Source: Dioscorea cayenensis subsp. rotundata | Lineage: Eukaryota; Streptophyta; Magnoliopsida; Dioscoreales; Dioscoreaceae | Length of the DNA stretch: 64,000 nt | Direction of reading: 5' to 3' | Assembly: GCF_009730915.1 (NCBI RefSeq) | Contig: NC_052483.1 | Span: 744,001-808,000, forward strand | In this document: piece by piece, positions 1,010-64,000 of the stretch | Position numbering within the stretch: the first letter of the stretch is position 1 | How the letters are laid out: every line of letters starts with the position of its first letter | Notes under the pieces: model-generated | Database searches by the model: none | What the model was told of the DNA's origin: nothing | The model's input: only the letters and a program-made list of their open reading frames with translations | Translations under genes and position numbers: made by a program

Positions 1010-4000
1010 CTAATATCGGCTGTTGTCAATCACTTCAGGTGGCATGTTGAGATCAAAAGGTGCAGCAGCTCCAGCAACATCTCTTCTAGGCCTTTTCCGT
1101 GTGGACGAGCATCCACTCTCATCAGAACTAGAAGAGCCAGGAAATTGACTACCGGAATGCCTGCCTGTTCCAGTTGTTCCTATTTAACATGTTGACATTG
1201 TTTGTGTCAGCAATTTAGAGTCATGTTCTTAGTCGCATCAAATTTTAAAATTAAAAAAAATTGCAAGAGAAAAGAATGTGTTAGATGTATGTTTTTTGAT
1301 AAGGACTTGGAGAGGAAAACAAAAAGAAATGGAAGGTGGAAGATCAAATAGTGGTGTGATAATTTTAGTACCGATTCCATTCACAGCCAAATCCCATCTT
1401 GCACAGCTCCCTTCATTATTGTTTTTCGTGCTCCTAAGACTTTGATCAGAATCCCAGCAAACGGAGAGTTCAGTCGCTCTCTCGAGGCCTTTTGATTTGT
1501 ATGGGGCAATATTGTGGGTTGCACGTTGGAGAGGATAAAGTAGTTCATTCTCAATGCATTGGTACCTGCAGAATAATATTTTCACAACCAATGATACCAA
1601 CAAAGTTATAGATGAAAGAAACACCGACTTCTTATTAGGGTTGACTTGTACCCATTATTGATGATCCTTTCACTCAAACAAAAGTAAGAAAGAAGGAACA
1701 GAAAAGAAAAGAGTGAGAGATAGAACTCACATTTGCTTGCATAGTTTATCAACAACGTTGGACAAATTAATCACATGACTCATTGTGTCCAATACCTCAT
1801 CGTCACTGAAAGTCTGAAACTCCTTCTCTAAAAACATGGAAAGTTTCTCTACATTGGCCTCTAACTGTTGTTGCTGGTCCTCAAATAGGTTTTGCTTCAT
1901 ATCCCTTTCTTGAGGTGTCATCTCATCCTTGAAGAGCTCATCACCAAACATGTAAAATGCGAATGGATATGAATAAGAGAGCACACGCCTTGATCTGAAG
2001 AGCCGGTTCAACCCATTCATCACCCAACTATAATCTTTAATTTTGGATTGCTTACTTTCTGATACAGCTATTTTTTCCTGGATACTTTCCTTGAGATTGC
2101 TTTCTTGGTTAAGAGAATCTGTATGGGCCTTGTATCGGTTGTGATAATGCATATATCGATAGAGATCACGCCTAGCCCGTTCTGTCCTCTTAGCAATATC
2201 CTCTTTGAAGCGTCCACAACTGTGTCCAGCAATGCTCGACCAGGTATGGTCTCGTCCAGTAGCACCGCCACATAACCAACTGCATGGTGGAAATAAAATT
2301 TAAGTAATTGATCTTACTAGTTATGCTAGGCATACTGAAGGTAAACAAAAATATAAACAATTTAAGAATAGCCACTGATAGCTAAAACAGTGAATCCACA
2401 TCATAATTGAATTCAAGTGACGGAACCTTTTTTTCTACCACGGTTAAAAATTTAGAAAGCAATTGAAGTGAAGGATCAGTGAAGTGGGTGCCGTAGAGCT
2501 TTTTGATCACTCAACATAAGTCTGGCCACCAACTCCCAAAAGAAAAAGGTGCAGGAATGCAAAAAAGAAAGAAGTACATTTAGTGTCAATAACATCAAGT
2601 ATGGATGGTGTCATTGAGCACAAACAGAAAATATCGCTGGGATCATTGCAAGCAGCTTCGTGCAGGAATTCCAAGTGAAAATTTTTCCTTAGTTTGCAGA
2701 CCACTAAGATGAACAGCTTTTCAAGAAAATGAACACGACAAAAATAGGAAAATCATGACAACAACTGATCAAGAAAGAAGTATATATGACAAACAGCATC
2801 CAGTAACCCACAAATCCTCCAAGTAAACAAAACCGCAACAGCATCTATAGTTCTAACCGACAAAAAAGTCTCAAAGATTCAAGAATACTCACCAAAAAGC
2901 TTGTCCACATATACATGCGACTAGATTGCAACCACCATTCTTTTCAACAGGCTTGTGACACTTGGGGCATGGCTTTGTGTTAACTGTCATCCAATTTACT
3001 GTTTCAGACTCATCCTGACATTTTCTTGTCCAAAGCTCCCACATCTGGCATGAACAAGGTGAGTGTGCTTCGGATAAGCAACTGAAACAAAATTGAATGC
3101 CACATGTACATTCCACCTCACAACAAATATCACCCTCGACACGTATTGCATTTCCACAATGCGGTATGCTGGGGCACCATTTGACTTTATTGTTGTCCTC
3201 AATATATGATTCAAGAAGAAACCGGTCAAAGCGATCTGCAATATCTGGATGTCTAGCACTGACTAGAGTTCGGACAATGGCTTCATCGCAAACAGCAGTG
3301 CATTTGGGAGCCATGCATCTAATTCGGCGACTTTGCCCATCATTTATTTTGACAATAAAATGTTCTGTCCAACCTGAACGTAAAGTGAACTAACATAAGC
3401 AGAACCACATATACACAAATGGTGATAAGAATGACAAGGCTCAAGTTTGCCAAGAAAATATACTATGTGTCATAATATTTAGAGCTGGAAAGCTGTAAAA
3501 TGGACAAAATCGAAACTTACAATCGTTACAATAGGAGTGCCCACAATCCATCTCTGTCACTGAATTTTGTGTAACATCCTCAAAACAGATACTACAGTTT
3601 ACTGTCTGCGATGAATTTAACAAGCCAATGACATTACTCTTGTCAATGATAGTCACTCCAGCCTCTGAAAACAATTTCTCTTTCCCCCTCTGCTCCAACA
3701 ACTCAAATATCCTCTCCACATCCCAACGATAATAAATTAGGAGAGTTCGGGCATGCTGCTCGCTAAGAGCCAACAACTCCATCACCTTTCTCAAATCCTC
3801 TTTCTATACAACTCAACCAGTACCAATTTAAATACAAAACTCAGAAGTAGCACAATTAAACGATTTCCCCCAATTTCTCAAAACAAAATTTAAAAATAAA
3901 ACCATTGGAAAAGATCACCTGTGCAGCCAAAAGAGACTCTTTCGTGATAACCTGAAAAAAATTCATGTGCCAGGTCAAATGCTAGAGTTCTCCCGCCGAT

Positions 4001-4419
4001 TAACACAGAAATTGTAGAAATTATAGAACTTTTCAACATCAGAGATGAACAACCGAGCACAAGTGATCATATTGACAAAGAAATAAAAAACGAGATTTTA
4101 TTTTTATCTTGTCTGATAGGGCAATTATTTGAGATTATAGATGATCAATCCATCGAGAAAACAGTTAATCATGAAAACAAAAAAAGAAATCAACACCAAA
4201 CTCATTCGTAAAGATGAAACCATTAATTGAAAGGGAGAAAATGATCGAGAAGGCGCGTACCGAGGAGACGGACCAGTGGCAATCCTCCTCGTGCTGGGAT
4301 TCGAGTCCCTGAAGGACGGTCTCCTCCAGAACGTCTTCCTCTCGATCGCTGAGATAGAAGCCGGACATGTCCTCTTCCTCCATATCGCTGGACGAGGCGT
4401 AGTCCTCCTCCTCCGCCAT
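1010..4419 (-). CDS. Ariadne-type RBR E3 ubiquitin ligase (ARI1/ARI2-like)
   Basis: RING-between-RING E3 ligase that would accept ubiquitin from an E2 on a catalytic cysteine and pass it to substrate. Seven exons join in frame on the minus strand: 4261-4419, 3919-3951, 3521-3803, 2893-3373, 1731-2279, 1372-1565 and 1010-1179, giving 622 residues, close to plant ARI proteins. The N-terminus is acidic (MAEEEDY). RING1 has C134, C137, C151, H153, C156 and C159. The IBR follows, with the CGIQFCFSC segment. RING2 runs from C294/C297 (PCPKC) through the expected catalytic C307 in GGCNLVA to CWLCGG. The Ariadne helical region contains RYMHYHNRYKAH. The tail (STRKRPRRD, APFDLNMPP) is Ser-rich with a basic stretch. 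All junctions are GT-AG and no frame break is needed. The start is the first ATG before the acidic domain. Function is by family; the exact paralogue is not settled. Confidence 0.93.
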
Positions 4420-4752: not shown

Positions 4753-7444
4753 GGATTTGCATAAAAATCCTTGTTCCTTTGCCATATTTACAAACACTGT
4801 TTGGGCGTCCAGTGCATTTAGAGCCCAGCCCAACGGACCAATTTGGCAATTTCTAAGAATTGCATTTACTTCCCTTTATATAATTTACCATCTGATGACT
4901 TTGATCATCATAAAAATACCGAAAATACGCTCTATAATATTGTACCACATCATAAACACTAAAAAATATAGTGATTATATAAACAAAACAATCATTGGAT
5001 AATGATTCAAACGGTTTTAAATCAAACATCCCTAAAAAAATAATAATTTAAGAACTTTAACTATATTACATTTTGCCTTATGCATATTATACATGTGTAA
5101 AACGCTGTCCAACCATGAACAAAAAGTCATATATATTGTTTTTGGTGTTTATAACTTTTGAATTGAAAAAGAAAATATAATACATTTCTAAAGCTTGCCG
5201 ATTTGTCAAGCATAGTCTCGAATTCTTGCTAGTAAAAACACTCTCCAATCAGGGTTCTTGCTAGACTCATCACCAATTCTGGACAACGTCAACCTGGAAG
5301 CAGCTTCATCTCAATCTACTTTCATCTTGTCTCTTTATCTTAGTTGTTGGTAGTTATTTTTATTAGTTCTTCTTCCTCACAACCAATGCCATCTATCTTA
5401 TAATCTCTCTTACTTTTCTTTTTTTTAATTTCATGCTTTTTATTTTAACTTAATATATATGTACTGAGGTTCGTCCTCAGTCCAGTACATTTCTTTCTAT
5501 TTCTTTTTAATACAAGATTAGATATTTGACATATGTCATATATATTTTAACGGTCAAAATTTAAATTTCACCAAAATCCTGTTATTTCAAGTTAAAATTC
5601 TCTTTTTAAACTTGGTTTAGATAAAAAAAATAGTCTTCCTAAATTTTTTATTAAAGCATTAATCTTTGAATATGTTTCAACTACCTCTTTTTATGAATAT
5701 ATATATATATATATATATAAAAAGAAAAGATGATAGAAATTTGGTATCTTAAAAAATATAATTTGTTGCATACCATAAAAATAATAAATTTTGTTTTTAA
5801 AATTAAAAAAATAATAATAAACACCTAAAAGTCTGTTTATATATATATAACAAGAACTTAATATCTAGATTGGATTTTGGTAGAATTTTAATACTAGATT
5901 TCCAAAAAATCAAGAGTAAAATAGAGCTAAAACAAACACTGTAAAAATAAAAATTTAGTGAAGTTTGAATTATGGCCATTGAAAGCATATATATATATAA
6001 CACATGTTAAACATCTAAATTTGTATTAAAAAAAACTAGAAGAAAATATACGGATTGTAGCTTAATAAGCTATGTACTTTTATCCATTTTATCAAAAATA
6101 AATACATAAATACTTATTGTAAATTTTTTAAAAAAAATATTTGGCAGGTGAAGAGTATGTCCTTTGCTTTATTCAGTGCTATGTTAATTAGAGAATAACC
6201 AGCTCGTGATCTCTTCGTTTAACAAAGGTATGTTTCATCCACTTTTATTTATATACGTATATATATATATACACACACATATATTATATCATAGTTTCAT
6301 ATGATAAAAAATATCCACTTTTATCCACGTTTTGTTTAATTTTTGGATTTTTTTTTCTTGTAAACCAATTACTAAGTGCATAAACGGTAACTTGCTTTAA
6401 TGACTATGTTCTGGATATTTGTTTATATTTTTTTACAAATAATTGTTATTTTTTTAATAATTTTTAGGACGAAAAAAATTAATTGAATATTCTTATAAAA
6501 AAATTGAGATCGAAATTCACTCTTCTTTCTATTCATCCATTTTATTAAGGTTAATAATATATTATTATTATTAATGTATTTAAGTTGGGATTTTTAATTG
6601 GTAATTAAGAGAAGAGTACATTAACAACTTTCCATAATTATAATGAGTATATTTTTCTCATATTTTTTTATTGACTCACTCATTGATGATTATCAAAAAT
6701 ATATATATAAAGTAATATGAAAAGATTATCTTCTCTTTTGGTGTGAGTCTTTGTTTAGTCATTCCGTTATTATTATTTGTCGTTTCGTATTTATCATTTT
6801 TATTTTTATTAATAAATTTTTAGTTTATTCATCTGTTTAAATAATAATAATAAGTGACAACTTAAATCCTAAAAATAATTTGCCTCGTAGTGGTTTATTC
6901 ATTTTTAAAAGAAAACAAAAAAATAAATAAATAATTTGGCAAAGTGCATACATGTCACACAATTTGGAAGCCGCCATAATTTGAGGAGTGAAGGTAGTAA
7001 ATCCGAATTGGACAATGGAAGAGACGTGCTTGAATTTATTATGGTAAATGTAATCCAAAGCAAATATTTCTATCCTTAGATAGATTACTATTCATGAAAA
7101 TAAAATAATTTTACTTGGGCCTTAAGTTTCAAAATCTTTAAAGTAATTTCTCCTATTCATACCATAAAAAAGGCTAGCCTATTATTGTGGTTTCATCTTT
7201 CATGATGACTTTCCTTAACAAAAACAAAATCTCTTAATTTTGTCAATAATTTGTAATCACAAAAATATATATTTATTCCAAGTTTCCTTCTTTTTTTTTT
7301 CCTTAAAAATTTCTCCATCATTTATGTTTCATATATTATATAGCAATATACATGTTTAGGTCCTGCCATATATATAATTAAACACATTATATATAGCCAT
7401 AGGAATATATTGTTTTTCATGCATAGCAAACAAACATTGAGTGC
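4753..7444. other. AT-rich intergenic spacer
   Basis: Very AT-rich DNA with several (TA)n runs (for example near 5698-5720 and 6255-6275). No family-like coding region, tRNA or bounded repeat was recognised. The last few hundred bases should hold the promoter of the MADS gene. Confidence 0.5.
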
Positions 7445-7781
7445 ATGCAAGGTGAAGAAGGCATGATGGAGGCAAAGATGGATATGAAACAGAACCAGAA
7501 GCAGAAGCAGAAGCAGAAGCAGAAGCAGAAGCAAAATCAAGGACGGCAGAAGGTCCCAATAAAAAGAATAGAGAAGGACACAGCCCGGCAGGCCACCTTC
7601 TCTAAGCGCCGGAAAGGGTTCTTCAAGAAAGCCAATGAACTCGCCGTGCTGTGCGGTGTTCAAGTGACTGCACTCGCCTTCTCTCCTGCTGGCAAACTCT
7701 ACAGCTTCACCGCCAACACGTCCCTTGATGAACTCATGCATCGCTGTATAGCAAATGCCGGACCTTCTGATCTTCATTATC

Positions 7782-7828
<47 letters not shown>

Positions 7829-8044
7829 GAGCAGCAGCAGCAACAACAAGAGCAGCAGCAGCCCTGGGACATGGTGGGCATGAATATGGATGATCATCTG
7901 GGACAGGTGGAGATGATTAATTATGATGATGAGTTTTGGAATAATTGGTTAAACGAACTCATGACTGATGAAACTCTCAACCTTCCTCCTCTTCCTGATC
8001 TTCTTCTCGATCCTCCAACTGGCTCTTCGTCTCACCATCTTTGA
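7445..8044 (+). CDS. Type I (M-type) MADS-box transcription factor
   Basis: Intronless 199-residue DNA-binding protein. The MADS domain is at about residues 33-92, with GRQKVPIKRIE, the FSKRRKGFFKKANELAVLCG core and ALAFSPAGKLYSF. Absence of a K-box, a single exon and short length fit type I (M-alpha-like) genes, which in characterised plants act in female gametophyte and endosperm. A lysine-glutamine alternation (residues 15-30) precedes the domain, and a long glutamine run broken by Glu (residues 113-138) follows it. The C-terminus is acidic and ends with a proline/leucine-rich stretch (LPPLPDLLLDPP). The first ATG at 7445 gives the listed frame; a later Met (residue 7 or 8) is possible. 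The 1000-N gap starts 343 bp downstream. Role is inferred from the class only. Confidence 0.9.
7781..7861 (+). repeat. CAA/CAG trinucleotide tract coding polyglutamine
   Basis: About 27 near-contiguous CAA/CAG codons with two GAG interruptions inside the MADS gene. The 5' half is pure CAA and the 3' half mixes CAG and CAA. A shorter hexamer run (AAGCAG) at about 7497-7530 codes the Lys-Gln repeat upstream of the MADS domain. Confidence 0.95.
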
Positions 8045-8387: not shown

Positions 8388-9387
8388 NNNNNNNNNNNNN
8401 NNNNNNNNNNNNNNNNNNNNNNNNNNNNNNNNNNNNNNNNNNNNNNNNNNNNNNNNNNNNNNNNNNNNNNNNNNNNNNNNNNNNNNNNNNNNNNNNNNNN
8501 NNNNNNNNNNNNNNNNNNNNNNNNNNNNNNNNNNNNNNNNNNNNNNNNNNNNNNNNNNNNNNNNNNNNNNNNNNNNNNNNNNNNNNNNNNNNNNNNNNNN
8601 NNNNNNNNNNNNNNNNNNNNNNNNNNNNNNNNNNNNNNNNNNNNNNNNNNNNNNNNNNNNNNNNNNNNNNNNNNNNNNNNNNNNNNNNNNNNNNNNNNNN
8701 NNNNNNNNNNNNNNNNNNNNNNNNNNNNNNNNNNNNNNNNNNNNNNNNNNNNNNNNNNNNNNNNNNNNNNNNNNNNNNNNNNNNNNNNNNNNNNNNNNNN
8801 NNNNNNNNNNNNNNNNNNNNNNNNNNNNNNNNNNNNNNNNNNNNNNNNNNNNNNNNNNNNNNNNNNNNNNNNNNNNNNNNNNNNNNNNNNNNNNNNNNNN
8901 NNNNNNNNNNNNNNNNNNNNNNNNNNNNNNNNNNNNNNNNNNNNNNNNNNNNNNNNNNNNNNNNNNNNNNNNNNNNNNNNNNNNNNNNNNNNNNNNNNNN
9001 NNNNNNNNNNNNNNNNNNNNNNNNNNNNNNNNNNNNNNNNNNNNNNNNNNNNNNNNNNNNNNNNNNNNNNNNNNNNNNNNNNNNNNNNNNNNNNNNNNNN
9101 NNNNNNNNNNNNNNNNNNNNNNNNNNNNNNNNNNNNNNNNNNNNNNNNNNNNNNNNNNNNNNNNNNNNNNNNNNNNNNNNNNNNNNNNNNNNNNNNNNNN
9201 NNNNNNNNNNNNNNNNNNNNNNNNNNNNNNNNNNNNNNNNNNNNNNNNNNNNNNNNNNNNNNNNNNNNNNNNNNNNNNNNNNNNNNNNNNNNNNNNNNNN
9301 NNNNNNNNNNNNNNNNNNNNNNNNNNNNNNNNNNNNNNNNNNNNNNNNNNNNNNNNNNNNNNNNNNNNNNNNNNNNNNNNNNNNNNN
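8388..9387. other. Assembly gap of 1000 N
   Basis: Exactly 1000 undetermined bases, a conventional placeholder for a gap of unknown size. Reading frames that cross it are meaningless. Confidence 1.
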
Positions 9388-41318: not shown

Positions 41319-43052
41319 TGATGGGGGTTTGTGAATGTATGAATGAAGGTGGACAGTGCAAATAGGCCTGGGATACTTCTGGAGATGGTGCAGGTGCTCA
41401 CTGACCTGGATCTTGTGATTTCAAAGTCCTACATCTCCTCTGATGGTGGATGGCTCATGGATGGCAAGTCCTTTTTCTTATTATTATTTTTAATTTGTTT
41501 TTGAATGCGCATAAATAAATAAACACTTGTTATATTTGATGGTGATGTTGATGGTGATGGGCATGGTTGATAATACAGTGTTCCACGTGACGGACCACCA
41601 AGGGAAAAAGCTGACCGACCAATCACTCATCCTTTATATCCAACAGGTCAGTCCATTTCCAATTTTTATTTTTATTTTATTTTTTTATAATATATACAAG
41701 TATCATCATTGTTATTTGTTATTTGAAACTGAAAAAAGGTTTAGATGTAATGCAGTCGCTGGTTGTTGGGAGGAAAGAGAGTGCCAGAGAGGTCAGGACT
41801 TGTTTAGGGGAGGCTGGTGGGCCCAGGACACCTGGCGGCAGAACACACTGTCTTGGAGTTCACGGCGGCGGACCGGCCAGGGCTCTTGTCGGAGGTCTCC
41901 GCCGTGCTCGTCGAGCTAGATTGTCACGTGCTGTCCACCCAGGCATGGACACACAACTCACGTGCCGCTTGCATCATGACTCTTGTGGACACCCCTTCCG
42001 CCCGGCCCATTGTAAGCCGTGAACGTTTGGGCTATGTGGAGGAACAGGTTGGGAGTGTAGTGGGGGCCCATCGTGGGCCTGGTGAGAAAATGCATGTTAG
42101 TTTAAGTGGGCCCACTCCCTGGTCGAGTCCATAGTGAGCGAAGGTTGCACCAGTTGATGCTGGAGGATGGGGACTATGAGGAAAGTCCTTTGCCGTTGCC
42201 GGTTGAAGGGGACCAGTTTGCAAAGGTGAACATTGAGGAGAGAAAGAAGGAGTCAATGGGGTTTGGATCAGGTGCGGCGAGGATGGTGACACAAGTGTCA
42301 GTGGATAGTTGGAAGGAGAGGGGGTATTCGGTTGTTAATGTTAGGAGTAGAGACAGACCCAAGTTGTTGTTTGATACTGTGTGTGCATTGACGGACATGC
42401 AGTATGCTGTGTTTCATGCTGCTGTTAGCTCTCATGGACCGGTTGCTTTGCAGGAGTATTACATCCGGCGAGTAGATGGGTGTACATTGGATGCGGAGGT
42501 GGAGAGACGACGAGTTACTCGGTGTTTGGTTGCAGCGATTGAACGCAGGGTATCTCATGTGAGTTTAAGTTTTGTCATTGGATTATTTATGTATTGATTG
42601 TTTTCTTTTTTTTTTTTGGTAGTTTGATTATTGATGTGTTAATGTGTATGTAGGGAATGAGGTTGGATGTTTGCATGAGAGATAGGGTAGGATTGATAGC
42701 AGAGATCACAAGAGCAGTACGAGAGAATGGGTTGTCTTTGGCAAGGGTAGAGTGTAGATTGCAGAGGCAGATGATGGTAGGGTCATTTTTATGTGACCGA
42801 TGCGTCGGGAGGGGAGTGGTCGATGAAAGGAGGGTGGAGGCGTTGCGAGAGCAGATTGGTGCCGGTGTTGATCTGGAGGTGAAGGGCTTATCGCCAATGC
42901 AGTCTCGTCGTATCAGCACTAACAACAACCTAGCCTCGTCGAACCATGGTGATGGTAGCAGTGCTAGCAGTGAAGAGAAGCCGAGACTATCTTTAGGGAG
43001 TCTGCTCTGGTATCACATTGAGCGTCTCTCCAACTTTGGGTCCATTAGATAA
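41032..43052 (+). CDS. ACT domain-repeat protein (plant ACR family)
   Basis: Soluble protein with four ACT domains, the fold that senses amino acids; plant ACRs are homologous to bacterial GlnD sensors, and their ligands are mostly unproven. Exons are 41032-41132, 41202-41247, 41349-41463, 41579-41646, 41756-42558 and 42654-43052. Order: [35 protein letters not shown]1 ([33 protein letters not shown]); ACT2 ([32 protein letters not shown]); [13 protein letters not shown]3 ([34 protein letters not shown]); ACT4 ([20 protein letters not shown]). Intron 3 has a GC donor (GATG|GCAAGT). Exon 5 carries two single-base frame offsets: an apparent extra G in GGGG at 41807-41810, and one more in the GGG/CCC runs around 42108-42118. 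Flanking frames match the family exactly, so these look like sequence errors rather than loss of function. It is convergent with the BSD gene. Confidence 0.88.
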
Positions 43053-47692: not shown

Positions 47693-48650
47693 ATACTTAT
47701 GTTTGGATAATTTACTATTAGTTTAGTAATGAGTACTATAGATAATTGTATGGTGCATAGTAAAAGAATTGAATATCTCAAATTTGGGGGGCATGGAGGG
47801 AATAAACACTATTGATAGTAAAATGACATTTTTACCCATACTTAAGACTTAATTAAATAATAACAATTAATTTAAATAACTAATTATAATAATTAAATTA
47901 AATTATAATAAACATAAACTGAGTCATTTAAATATTATAATAATCAAAGTGAAATGACAGTTTCTCAATTACATAGATTTAATTAAATAAAATAATTAAT
48001 AAAAGTATTTAATAATTATAAGTAAAGTGAAATGACATTTTTGCTCCTACTTAAGACTTAATTAAATAATAACAATTAATTTAAATAACTAATTATAATA
48101 ATTAAATTAAATTATAATAAACATAAACTGAGTCATTTAAATATTATAATAATTAAAGTGAAATGACAGTTTTGCCATTACATAGATTTAATTAAATAAA
48201 ATAATTAACAAAAGTATATAATAATTATAACTAAAGTGAAATGACATTTTTGCCCATACTTAAGACTTAATTAAATAATAATAATTAATTTAAATAAATA
48301 ATTATAATAATTAAATTAAATTATAATAAACATAAATTGAGTCATTTAAATATTATAATTAAATTAAATTGGTTAATGATAAAAAATTATTTATTCTAAA
48401 TATTTAATTATAATAATTATAGAGACTAAATATTTATTTATATGTAATTATTTTATATATTAATTTATCGTTACTTATATTAAGGGCATTAAAGTAATTT
48501 ACATACAAACTCTATGTCACTTTTTCCATTCCCAATATTTATTCCTTTCAACCAAACATCTTTTTCATTACCATTAACAGTACTTTTCTCATTCTCATTA
48601 CCATTACCATTCCTATTCCGTGATCCAAACGGACTCAAGTGTTCAGAGAA
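47693..48650. other. Degenerate MITE-like block holding a tandem array
   Basis: The left part (TATGTTTGGATAATTTAC) and the right part (GTGATCCAAACGGACTCAAG) resemble opposite ends of a GTTTGGAT-type element, with GGTAATGAGTAC-like motifs inside both arms. The interior is the 209-bp tandem repeat. Ends and target duplication are uncertain. Confidence 0.4.
47821..48360. repeat. Tandem repeat, 209-bp period, about 2.6 copies
   Basis: The phrase AAATGACATTTTT recurs at 47821, 48030 and 48239, exactly 209 bp apart, each followed by the same 130 bp ending GAGTCATTTAAATATTATAA. A sub-motif AAATGACAGTTT sits 131 bp into the first two units, which suggests an older internal duplication. Copies differ by few bases, so the expansion is fairly recent. 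Confidence 0.9.
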
Positions 48651-51914: not shown

Positions 51915-52391
51915 TCAAAGCACAGGGCTGCTGCCATGGTCCAAAGCAGACAAAGTTCCAGGGCTGAGTAATGGAGACAAACACCAGCCAGAATAAAACG
52001 GCTGAGAGATATTGAACCCCATGAAGCCATTGTTATCTAGCAAAGGACCAGGACCAAGCTCAACTTGGCTCTGAACAGGCTGTGGCAAAGGTCTGGGTGC
52101 CAACTCAAGTGGAGCCGGCATCGGTGCAGTGTCTCTAAGAGGCCGTGACCCAGCCTGTTTTGGTGGTGCGCCGGTGAGTCGTTGCACTAGTTTACGGAAT
52201 CCACGTGGCTCAACACGGTAAACTCTTGGAGGTGGCTGCTCCGACCGGCGCCAAGACTTCACCGGCGGCTTCTTAATGGAATGAAGTGTTGAACTGAAGT
52301 GTGGCTGTGGTTGTGCTGGTGGTGGTGGTGGTTGTGAGTGTGTTTCCGGTGTGTAAAGGTGAAGAGAGAGTGGAGGGAAAGAAGAGTCCAT
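51915..52391 (-). CDS. VQ motif-containing protein
   Basis: Intronless 158-residue plant cofactor of WRKY transcription factors, expected in the nucleus. The diagnostic motif F-x3-V-Q-x2-T-G is complete at residues 65-74 (FRKLVQRLTG). Before it are a proline-rich stretch with five consecutive Pro and a basic patch (KKPPVKSWRRSE, RVYRVEPRG). After it come proline/leucine-rich segments and a C-terminus with GFMGFNISQPFYSGW and LSPLLSPGTLSALDHG, typical of the VQ family. The start is the first ATG, 80 bp downstream of a TATA box. No damage is seen. Upstream motifs include a W-box, so feedback by WRKY factors is possible. Subgroup is not assigned. Confidence 0.92.
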   Translation of the reverse strand: MDSSFPPLSLHLYTPETHSQPPPPPAQPQPHFSSTLHSIKKPPVKSWRRSEQPPPRVYRVEPRGFRKLVQRLTGAPPKQAGSRPLRDTAPMPAPLELAPRPLPQPVQSQVELGPGPLLDNNGFMGFNISQPFYSGWCLSPLLSPGTLSALDHGSSPVL

Positions 52392-52469
52392 TTGGGTTTT
52401 GGGTTTGGGTTCAGAGCTTGGAGTTAGTTTGGTGAGACAGTTGGGAAGGATATGTGAGGGTGTTTGTTA

Positions 52470-59637: not shown

Positions 59638-59646
59638 AAAAGTTAA

Positions 59647-59892
59647 GGGTTAATTTTTCAGTTAGTCACCTAACTATAACTAATTATCACTTCGGTCACC
59701 CAACTTCAAAACGTATCAAAATGGTCACTCAACTAATAATGTCTTTCACCAGTCAGTCACCAAAGAGATTCTGGCAAATAAAATCCTACGTAGTAGCCGG
59801 AATAGCTGAGTTAGTATTATTTAACCATGTCAACAGTCTAATTTGGCTTGTCCACGTCAGAGAAACTTGCTAACTCGGCTTAAGACCCTCCA
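59647..59892 (+). repeat. Left terminal inverted repeat of the Pack-MULE
   Basis: Pairs with 61082-61327 in reverse complement, with scattered substitutions and few or no gaps. Confidence 0.9.
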
Positions 59893-59948
59893 CATCATCA
59901 TCTTTCTTCTTCGTTCTTCGTCCTCAATTCAGAAGGAGCGAGGGGACG

Positions 59949-61078
59949 ATGTCTTGTGCGGAATATACCGTAGTTTTCGGTGATGGCGAAGTCGTGGAGG
60001 AAGGATGGCTCACGAACGGAGAAGATGGGAACGTCAGCGAGCTTGTTGCCATCCTTGTCGAACCGAAAGTAGGTGACGAATGGAGGGATGGGGCCGTAAA
60101 GGAAGGCGAAGAGCTCGCCGGTGGTAGGATCTTTCTTGGGATGAGCGGTCATGCCCATGAAGAGTTTGCCGGAGAAGTCTTCACGGCCGAGAATGGAGAT
60201 GTCGCCATCGGTGGTGGAAAGGTGGAGGGAGTAAGGTGTTGGAGAATGATTTGATCTGGAAATTAGCAACAGTTTCAGAGACATAAAGCTGAATACAGTG
60301 AAGCATGGGAAATGCAAAAGTTTGATCAGTCTTTATTTTGCCTGTCTTTGGAACTAGTTAATTGATGTTTTTGTTGTTTATGTTTGATGTTTAAGTATGT
60401 CTAAATGATGTTGTATGAACTCTATATATTCTAAATTATGTTATGGTATGAAGCATCAAGTAATTAATATCAATGTGTTCTTCATTCACTGAAACATCTG
60501 AGTTCTTGTGCCTTGTTCTTCTTCTGATATTTATCTTGAGTGTGTTTTAGATCCTATCATAAGGGAGGTCTGACTCACTGAGAGCGTAGAGACAGCCGGT
60601 GAAGAAGCTTAGATTGGTGTTAGCTAAGCCCGGGCTCCCTCGAGTCACGCTCATTTGACCCAGATGAGGAAGTCAGGGCAGTAGTGACGAGCACTGCGCA
60701 GCAACTCGGCATAGCTGTGGAAGCTGGAGAAGACGTTGGGAAGGACAGAAGCGTAGGTGCGGACAAAGCGGGAGAAGAGAAGAGATGGCGAAGAGGAGGA
60801 GGAGGGAGTGGAGCATGCCGTCACCGTCAAGAAATGGTGAGGACTGCAAGGGAGATATTAAGGGTTGGGGCCATTGCGGATGTAGACGTCGTCGGCGAGA
60901 CAAGTTGGTATATGGCCGTGAATGATGGGGCATGGGGTCGGGGGGAGCTCGGAGACCGGGGCGAAGTTGTCGGAAAGGATGTTGCGGGGATCGACGGAGG
61001 GCCGGAGGAGAGGTGGGTCAATGAAGTTGTTTATGATATCATCCAAAGCGTTGCAAAAGGTGGCGGCCAGTGAAGGGG
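59949..61078 (-). pseudogene. CCD4: Captured fragment of carotenoid cleavage dioxygenase 4
   Basis: On the minus strand an N-terminal piece (61078 down to about 60583) reads DDIINNFIDPP, RPSVDPRNILSDNFAPV, ELPPTPCPIIHGHIP, YIRNGPNP, then DGDGMLHS and LANTNLSFF...LYAL. After about 330 bp of intron-like AT-rich DNA (60560-60253) a second piece (about 60252-59955) reads TDGDISILGREDFSGKLF, MTAHPKKDP, TYFRFDKDGNKLADVPIFSV and SFLHDFAIT. The order is that of CCD4, which cleaves carotenoids in plastids. Only two of the four iron-binding histidines are covered (in MTAHP and FLHDF). The frame changes between YIRNGPNP and DGDGMLHS, and both gene ends are absent, so no enzyme can result. The DNA is GC-rich, unlike its surroundings. 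Confidence 0.9.
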
Positions 61079-61081
61079 ATG

Positions 61082-61327
61082 TGGACGTTCTTAACCCTAG
61101 TCAGCAAGTTTCTCTAACGTGGACAAGCTAAGTTAGACTGCTGACATGGTTAAATAATGCTGACTCAGCTATTCCGGCTGCCACACAGGATTTTATTTGC
61201 CGGAATCTCTTTCGTGATTGACCGGTGAAAGACATTATTAATTGGATGACCATTTTGATATGTTTTGAAGTTGGGTGACCGAAGTGATAATTAGTTATAG
61301 TTGGGTGACTAAGTGAAAAATAAACCC
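61082..61327 (-). repeat. Right terminal inverted repeat of the Pack-MULE
   Basis: Complement of the left repeat. It ends AAATAAACCC directly before the 9-bp duplication. Confidence 0.9.
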
Positions 61328-61336
61328 AAAAGTTAA

Positions 61337-63758: not shown

Positions 63759-64000
63759 TCACTGAATGGTTCTGGTGAGCTTGCATTTGGAGATGAAAAG
63801 AGTGGCAGTGTAATTGAGACTACAAAGCTTCAACAACTCAGCGGCGCGCTGCTTTCAGCGCCGGATTACAACCACTCTGTAAAACTAGCAAGAGTTTGGC
63901 AGCCAACCCGGCTTCGACGGCGAGAGACGCGCACTCGTCCGGGGCAAGCTTGCACACCGCCCACAATATCGACAACGAGGACTGCGTACAAGCTTCAGAA
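63759..64000 (-). CDS. U-box/armadillo E3 ubiquitin ligase (PUB), C-terminal part
   Basis: The last 80 or so residues of a PUB-ARM ubiquitin ligase, running off the window end. The armadillo-like segment reads CTQSSLSILWAVCKLAPDEC, SLAVEAGLAAKLLLVLQSGC and NPALK, followed in the neighbouring frame by QRAELLKLCSLNY and the terminal FISKCKLTRTIQ before the TGA at 63759-63761. The ending is characteristic of one PUB-ARM subgroup with a Cys- and Lys-containing tail. The change of frame coincides with a TTT (63853-63855 on the plus strand; AAA on the coding strand) where AA is expected, so it is probably a one-base sequence error. The U-box lies beyond the window, hence no exact gene name. Confidence 0.8.

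Follow-up and report, generated by a model that had tools for sequence, protein, structure and literature searches.

The locus considered here raises the question of how a stretch of carotenoid cleavage dioxygenase (CCD4) coding sequence came to lie in two pieces inside a small yam transposon, and whether the DNA that separates the pieces is an intron, as a preliminary description had proposed. We analysed the window, that is the whole stretch of 64,000 nucleotides, which was placed at C13:744001-808000 of the searched assembly (584 Mb, 2249 contigs). We conclude, with a probability of about 0.93, that a Pack-MULE captured part of a CCD4-type gene, that a Copia solo LTR is nested in the captured sequence and that the element was amplified to seven sites. 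The parts of the element in the window are as follows, L029 being the sequence fetched for the donor gene.

59638..59646, no strand: left target-site duplication (TSD), AAAAGTTAA, exact 9-bp match
59647..59896, plus strand: left terminal inverted repeat (TIR), 250 bp, from the inverted-repeat alignment
59897..59962, plus strand: remaining MULE arm, matched up to element position 316 by L032, L033 and L034
Last three bases of this arm: GGA, common to MULE and donor, possible microhomology at the capture breakpoint
59960..60236, minus strand: CCD4 piece 2, 277 bp, 267/277 identical to donor L029:4321-4597
60232..60236, no strand: TAAGG, left copy of the LTR-insertion duplication
60237..60559, plus strand: Copia solo LTR, 323 bp, TGTTGG...CCTATCA, the supposed intron of the preliminary description
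60560..60564, no strand: TAAGG, right copy of the LTR-insertion duplication
60560..61081, minus strand: CCD4 piece 1, donor L029 about 3763-4325, 82-83% identical, gapped
61078..61327, minus strand: right TIR, 250 bp, from the inverted-repeat alignment
61078..61081: CATC on the minus strand, common to MULE and donor, at the other breakpoint
61328..61336, no strand: right TSD, AAAAGTTAA, exact 9-bp match

The complete MULE covers window positions 59647-61327 (1681 bp) and occurs once within the window. Its inverted ends, previously estimated at about 245 bp, align over 250 nt with 89.6% identity, or over 257 nt with 89% identity in a second alignment. The perfect 9-bp duplication that had been noted directly abuts both ends, and random sampling of the window gave identical 9-mers at the same spacing in 10 of 200,000 cases. 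Plant Pack-MULEs are reported to have TIRs of typically 100-500 bp, TSDs of 9-11 bp, no transposase and a GC-rich cargo (PMC3310237, PMC4858842). The TIRs and the TSD of the yam element fall within these ranges, it contains a host gene fragment, and all 1681 bp of the window copy can be assigned to TIRs, arm, CCD4 or LTR, with transposase absent. In addition, its ends are related to those of an element with a MULE transposase domain (L038), and the donor is not flanked by this MULE, as its 8.5-kb sequence matches the element only in the two CCD4 pieces. By every defining feature tested, the element is a Pack-MULE with multiple copies, and the earlier assignment to this class is borne out. No hits were obtained when the window was scanned against Rfam and for tRNAs.

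On the minus strand, each of the two interior pieces matches the carotenoid oxygenase profile RPE65 (PF03055), with E values of 2.1e-15 and 4.5e-20, and the Pfam profile order is kept across them (1-128, then 126-215). Among solved structures, the cargo matches VP14 from maize as well as a plant CCD1. When aligned with tolerance for frame changes, it is 58-59% identical to Arabidopsis CCD4 versus 43-48% to a VP14/CCD1 composite, a comparison that serves as a lead only. It is likely that the cargo gene is properly named CCD4 rather than after another carotenoid dioxygenase, a name that leans in part on this comparison. The genome search for the parental gene, suggested in the preliminary description together with an alignment to its exon-intron structure, led to one gene on contig C4 (G000:C4), in which the two pieces lie back to back with an overlap of 5 nt and without an exon-intron break. 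This gene consists of one open frame of 614 codons (L029:3511-5355), which covers positions 1-468 of the 469 of the RPE65 profile. The best candidate for the donor would be this intact, uninterrupted CCD4-type gene, and the proposed CCD4 capture is upheld by the profile matches and by the presence of this collinear gene in the same genome. As plant CCD4 genes are reported to have few introns (PMC4884571; CCD gene structure is also the subject of PMC13386687), an intron-free donor fits CCD4, although other intron-poor members of the family would fit as well.

The two pieces are not equally close to the donor, with identities of 96% for piece 2 versus 82-83% for piece 1. We considered two different donors and rejected this idea, as gaps and private changes explain much of the difference; substitutions found in the majority of copies amount to 10/272 and 28/513, respectively, relative to the donor. 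Piece 1 of the window copy is broken by deletions at two places that are common to all copies as well as by private frameshifts and one private stop codon. The longest frames starting with ATG reach up to 150 amino acids and are not common to all eight copies. A coding function was likewise rejected, since every copy is partial, gapped at the two places (8/8) and carries an LTR between the pieces.

According to the preliminary description, the interior was almost wholly CCD4 in the right order, with pieces at 60253-61078 and 59949-60252 and a probable intron at the expected position. The order is supported by both the profile and the donor, but the 323-bp spacer is an LTR and positions 59897-59962 belong to the MULE arm. 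The former limits also have to be redrawn, as the first of these pieces joins LTR and CCD4 sequence; the actual pieces are 59960-60236 and 60560-61081. A Pack-MULE that took up two CCD4 exons plus their intron from genomic DNA would account for an AT-rich spacer (31% GC versus 55-57% in the pieces) between collinear coding pieces. However, the donor reads ...ESDLPYSLHLSTTDGD... unbroken at the position of the spacer, and the one paralog found, located on C8 (L058), is also a single uninterrupted frame, of 573 codons. By eye, no GT is present at the expected splice donor (TATGATAGG), and at the other junction the donor homology resumes 19 nt after the nearest AG. With such a donor and paralog, and with a spacer that has the ends, duplication and relatives of an LTR, we rejected a spliceosomal intron of CCD4 and regard the capture of exons plus intron as having next to no chance of being correct. 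The missing splice sites had also suggested two separate captures, which we rejected because the donor pieces lie back to back with the overlap of 5 nt.

The properties of the spacer are those of a retrotransposon end. It has TG...CA termini, starting with TGTTGG and finishing with CCTATCA, and is flanked on both sides by TAAGG in 8/8 copies. Its first ~195 bp are about 83% identical to both members of two direct-repeat pairs (L030 and L031), with which its far end also aligns. The LTRs of L030 are 294 bp long, 99.3% identical to each other, 4.6 kb apart end to end and flanked by an ACTGG duplication; those of L031 are 293 bp long, 95.6% identical, 5.1 kb apart end to end and flanked by ACCTC. 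A profile scan of the interior, carried out for L030 only, identified Copia gag, integrase and RVT_2 reverse transcriptase domains, and the first LTR of L030 is followed by TGGTATCAGAG, which we take to be the usual initiator-methionine primer-binding site. Judged by these sequence features, the spacer at 60237-60559 is a Copia solo LTR, against which counts that its overall identity to the two sampled LTR pairs is only 70-71%. Neither the intron nor the conclusion drawn from it, that genomic DNA and not cDNA was captured, can be upheld, given a donor that is intron-free at this position and a spacer consisting of a solo LTR bounded by its own TAAGG duplication. As the donor sequence taken up is coding throughout, capture from DNA would look the same as capture from cDNA. 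More generally, an LTR nested inside captured coding sequence can mimic an intron.

The preliminary description had also called for a search for further copies. When the assembly was searched with the window copy (40/289 first-look candidates scored, so that shorter derivatives could have been overlooked), eight full-length copies were found, of which the other seven are 89-94% identical to the copy in the window, as were elements with related ends. The flanks of the copies L025 and L027 are 97.0-98.6% identical, and these two thus represent one insertion, which gives eight copies at seven sites. One of the two lies on an unplaced 80-kb contig and the other on C10, and the difference between them is larger in the element than in its flanks, suggesting an unmerged haplotype together with repeat errors. 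TSDs of 9-10 bp are located directly at both ends of L021, L022, L023, L024 and L028. For L025, a AATTATTCTC duplication reaches the changed first base of the element, and L027 has the same duplication with one extra base on the left. When these two are counted, TSDs of 9-10 bp are present in 7/8 copies. No target duplication was detected at the element ends of L026, which speaks against the proposed history. Within a few hundred bp of the copy on C4 (L043, G000:C4:1703000-1712900) are frames that resemble a malate-transporter gene on visual inspection, with a similar frame further on.

The deletions in piece 1 are also shared. The first gap relative to the donor measures 14 nt in five copies, 13 nt in L027, 20 nt in L021 and 23 nt in L026, and the second 27 nt in six copies and 24 nt in L022 and L025. 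In the tree of the copies, the inner branches are short and the outer ones longer. Given this tree, and as the LTR and the two gap places are common to all eight copies, the LTR was inserted before the element spread, and most simply the two CCD4 deletions would have preceded the amplification as well. Between L025 and L027, the difference amounts to 5.6% within the element and to 2.7% and 1.2% in the flanks. This discrepancy points to assembly or polishing errors in repeats, and the frameshifts and identities of individual copies are for this reason unreliable and probably inflated by error. The shared LTR, its duplication, the breakpoints and the two deletion places are independent of such errors.

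A search with the donor stretch, for which 13/13 candidates were scored, returned the intact donor, all eight copies in two pieces split at donor-query positions 276/280, the C8 paralog (68%) and three short matches (41-48 bp). No copy without the LTR was found among these candidates. A CCD4 copy or allele might thus already have contained the LTR at the time of the capture, with the MULE taking up both together. Since 8/8 copies carry the LTR, the copies themselves do not fix the order of the two events. However, the only close CCD4-type gene found is without an LTR, and a donor that was lost or is unassembled would be needed; we consider an LTR that came first unlikely.

We therefore propose the following order of events, starting with a non-autonomous MULE. 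This element would have taken up about 0.84 kb from the CCD4-type gene on contig C4, all of it continuous coding sequence, probably by gap filling with template switching. The boundaries of the capture are directly visible, as the element keeps its left arm to 59962 and its right arm to 61078, with GGA and CATC as the shared letters at the breakpoints. These 3 and 4 nt may represent microhomology, although chance matches are possible at such lengths. A Copia retrotransposon would then have inserted into the CCD4 piece, presumably after the capture, and generated the 5-bp TAAGG duplication, and recombination between its two LTRs would have left the solo LTR. Finally, the element with its LTR and the two CCD4 deletions would have moved to seven sites, including the one in the window, with the transposase of its TIR family probably acting in trans. 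The donor, the copies and a transposase-bearing relative are all present in one assembly, and the capture, the insertion of the retrotransposon, its reduction to a solo LTR and the amplification can be read as ordered events in one small family.

With regard to the source of the transposase, nine loci with related ends but without CCD4 were fetched. Eight of these have inverted ends of 196-395 bp, and no inverted match between the ends was found for L035. The MULE transposase domain PF10551 (E = 1.5e-08) and a SWIM domain are located between the related ends of L038; SWIM alone was detected in L033 and, barely above the cut-off, in L036. These domain matches are fragments and no intact transposase frame is among the frames listed for the relatives, which likewise speaks against the proposed history. 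L040 (G000:C976:388999-391156), with inverted ends of 196 bp, contains a PORR gene fragment (PF11955, 6.2e-15) in the frame 1097-1474 on the minus strand. L040 is probably another Pack-MULE, and this TIR family has thus probably captured at least one other gene.

In the long TIRs, the TSD, the transposase-free gene fragment and the GC-rich cargo, the yam element resembles plant Pack-MULEs as described in the papers cited above; it differs from them in having CCD4 as its cargo and a nested solo LTR in 8/8 copies. A literature search returned no paper containing both 'Pack-MULE' and 'carotenoid cleavage dioxygenase'. For rice MULEs, a nested Os0548 MITE has been described in 107 elements, derived from one insertion (PMC3903597). 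A nested passenger in an amplified MULE therefore has a precedent, and in both plants a nested transposon was carried and amplified with its host MULE. In rice, the passenger is a MITE and the host MULE contains transposase sequence, whereas the yam element carries a Copia solo LTR in captured host coding sequence. The tomato PM-ZIBP Pack-MULEs are also multicopy elements with AT-rich duplications of 9-10 bp (PMC3310237). They carry a different cargo and are smaller, with 944-1372 bp given in five rows, and some have tandem TIRs, which were not detected in the window copy. Animal Pack-TIRs show short microhomology at their breakpoints, with a median of 2 bp (PMC8277862), similar to the 3 and 4 nt seen here, although the element described here is a plant MULE.

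Does the family act on its parental gene? The window copy has 131 exact 21-mers in common with the donor frame, the eight copies have between 76 and 212, and taken together they contain 318/1825 donor 21-mers. With these shared exact 21-mers, CCD4 is a conceivable target of small RNAs from the family, and silencing of the parental gene in trans, which had been suggested for transcripts of this copy, is possible on these sequence grounds. When the full-length transcript of the window copy was folded, TIR paired with TIR in 233-234 base pairs and no perfect helix above 12 bp was found in the CCD4 part. A simple hairpin would thus yield small RNAs from the TIRs and not from CCD4, for which transcription of both strands would be required. 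The LTR is oriented along the plus strand, and any transcription that it still initiated would run antisense to CCD4 piece 1. Promoters in the TIRs or the LTR at the seven sites might produce transcripts that give rise to small RNAs, which would now silence the C4 gene. Despite the shared 21-mers and the orientation of the LTR, this appears improbable in view of the TIR pairing and the lack of a longer CCD4 helix in the fold. Even more doubtful is a further step, in which the nested LTR would drive antisense CCD4 RNA from up to seven sites and lead to a copy-number-dependent, naturally varying repression of CCD4 and carotenoid colour. If CCD4 were a target of such small RNAs, the carotenoid level would be tied to the number of transposon copies. 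Most likely, the element presently behaves as an ordinary silenced transposon.

The remainder of the window contains ordinary plant gene frames, with Ariadne and IBR matches at 1727-3389 (minus strand), an ACT match below the cut-off at 42106-42597 (plus strand) and a VQ match at 51915-52466 (minus strand). A MADS-box frame at 7427-8041 (plus strand; SRF-TF, 4.6e-24) has long glutamine runs and lies near a block of 1000 N at 8388-9387. At 47817-48368, a unit of 209 bp is repeated in tandem (2.6 copies, 94% matches). At the right edge of the window, about 2.5 kb from the element, a frame that is U-box-like by eye occupies 63841-64000 and extends beyond it (L041:6842-7999, minus strand).
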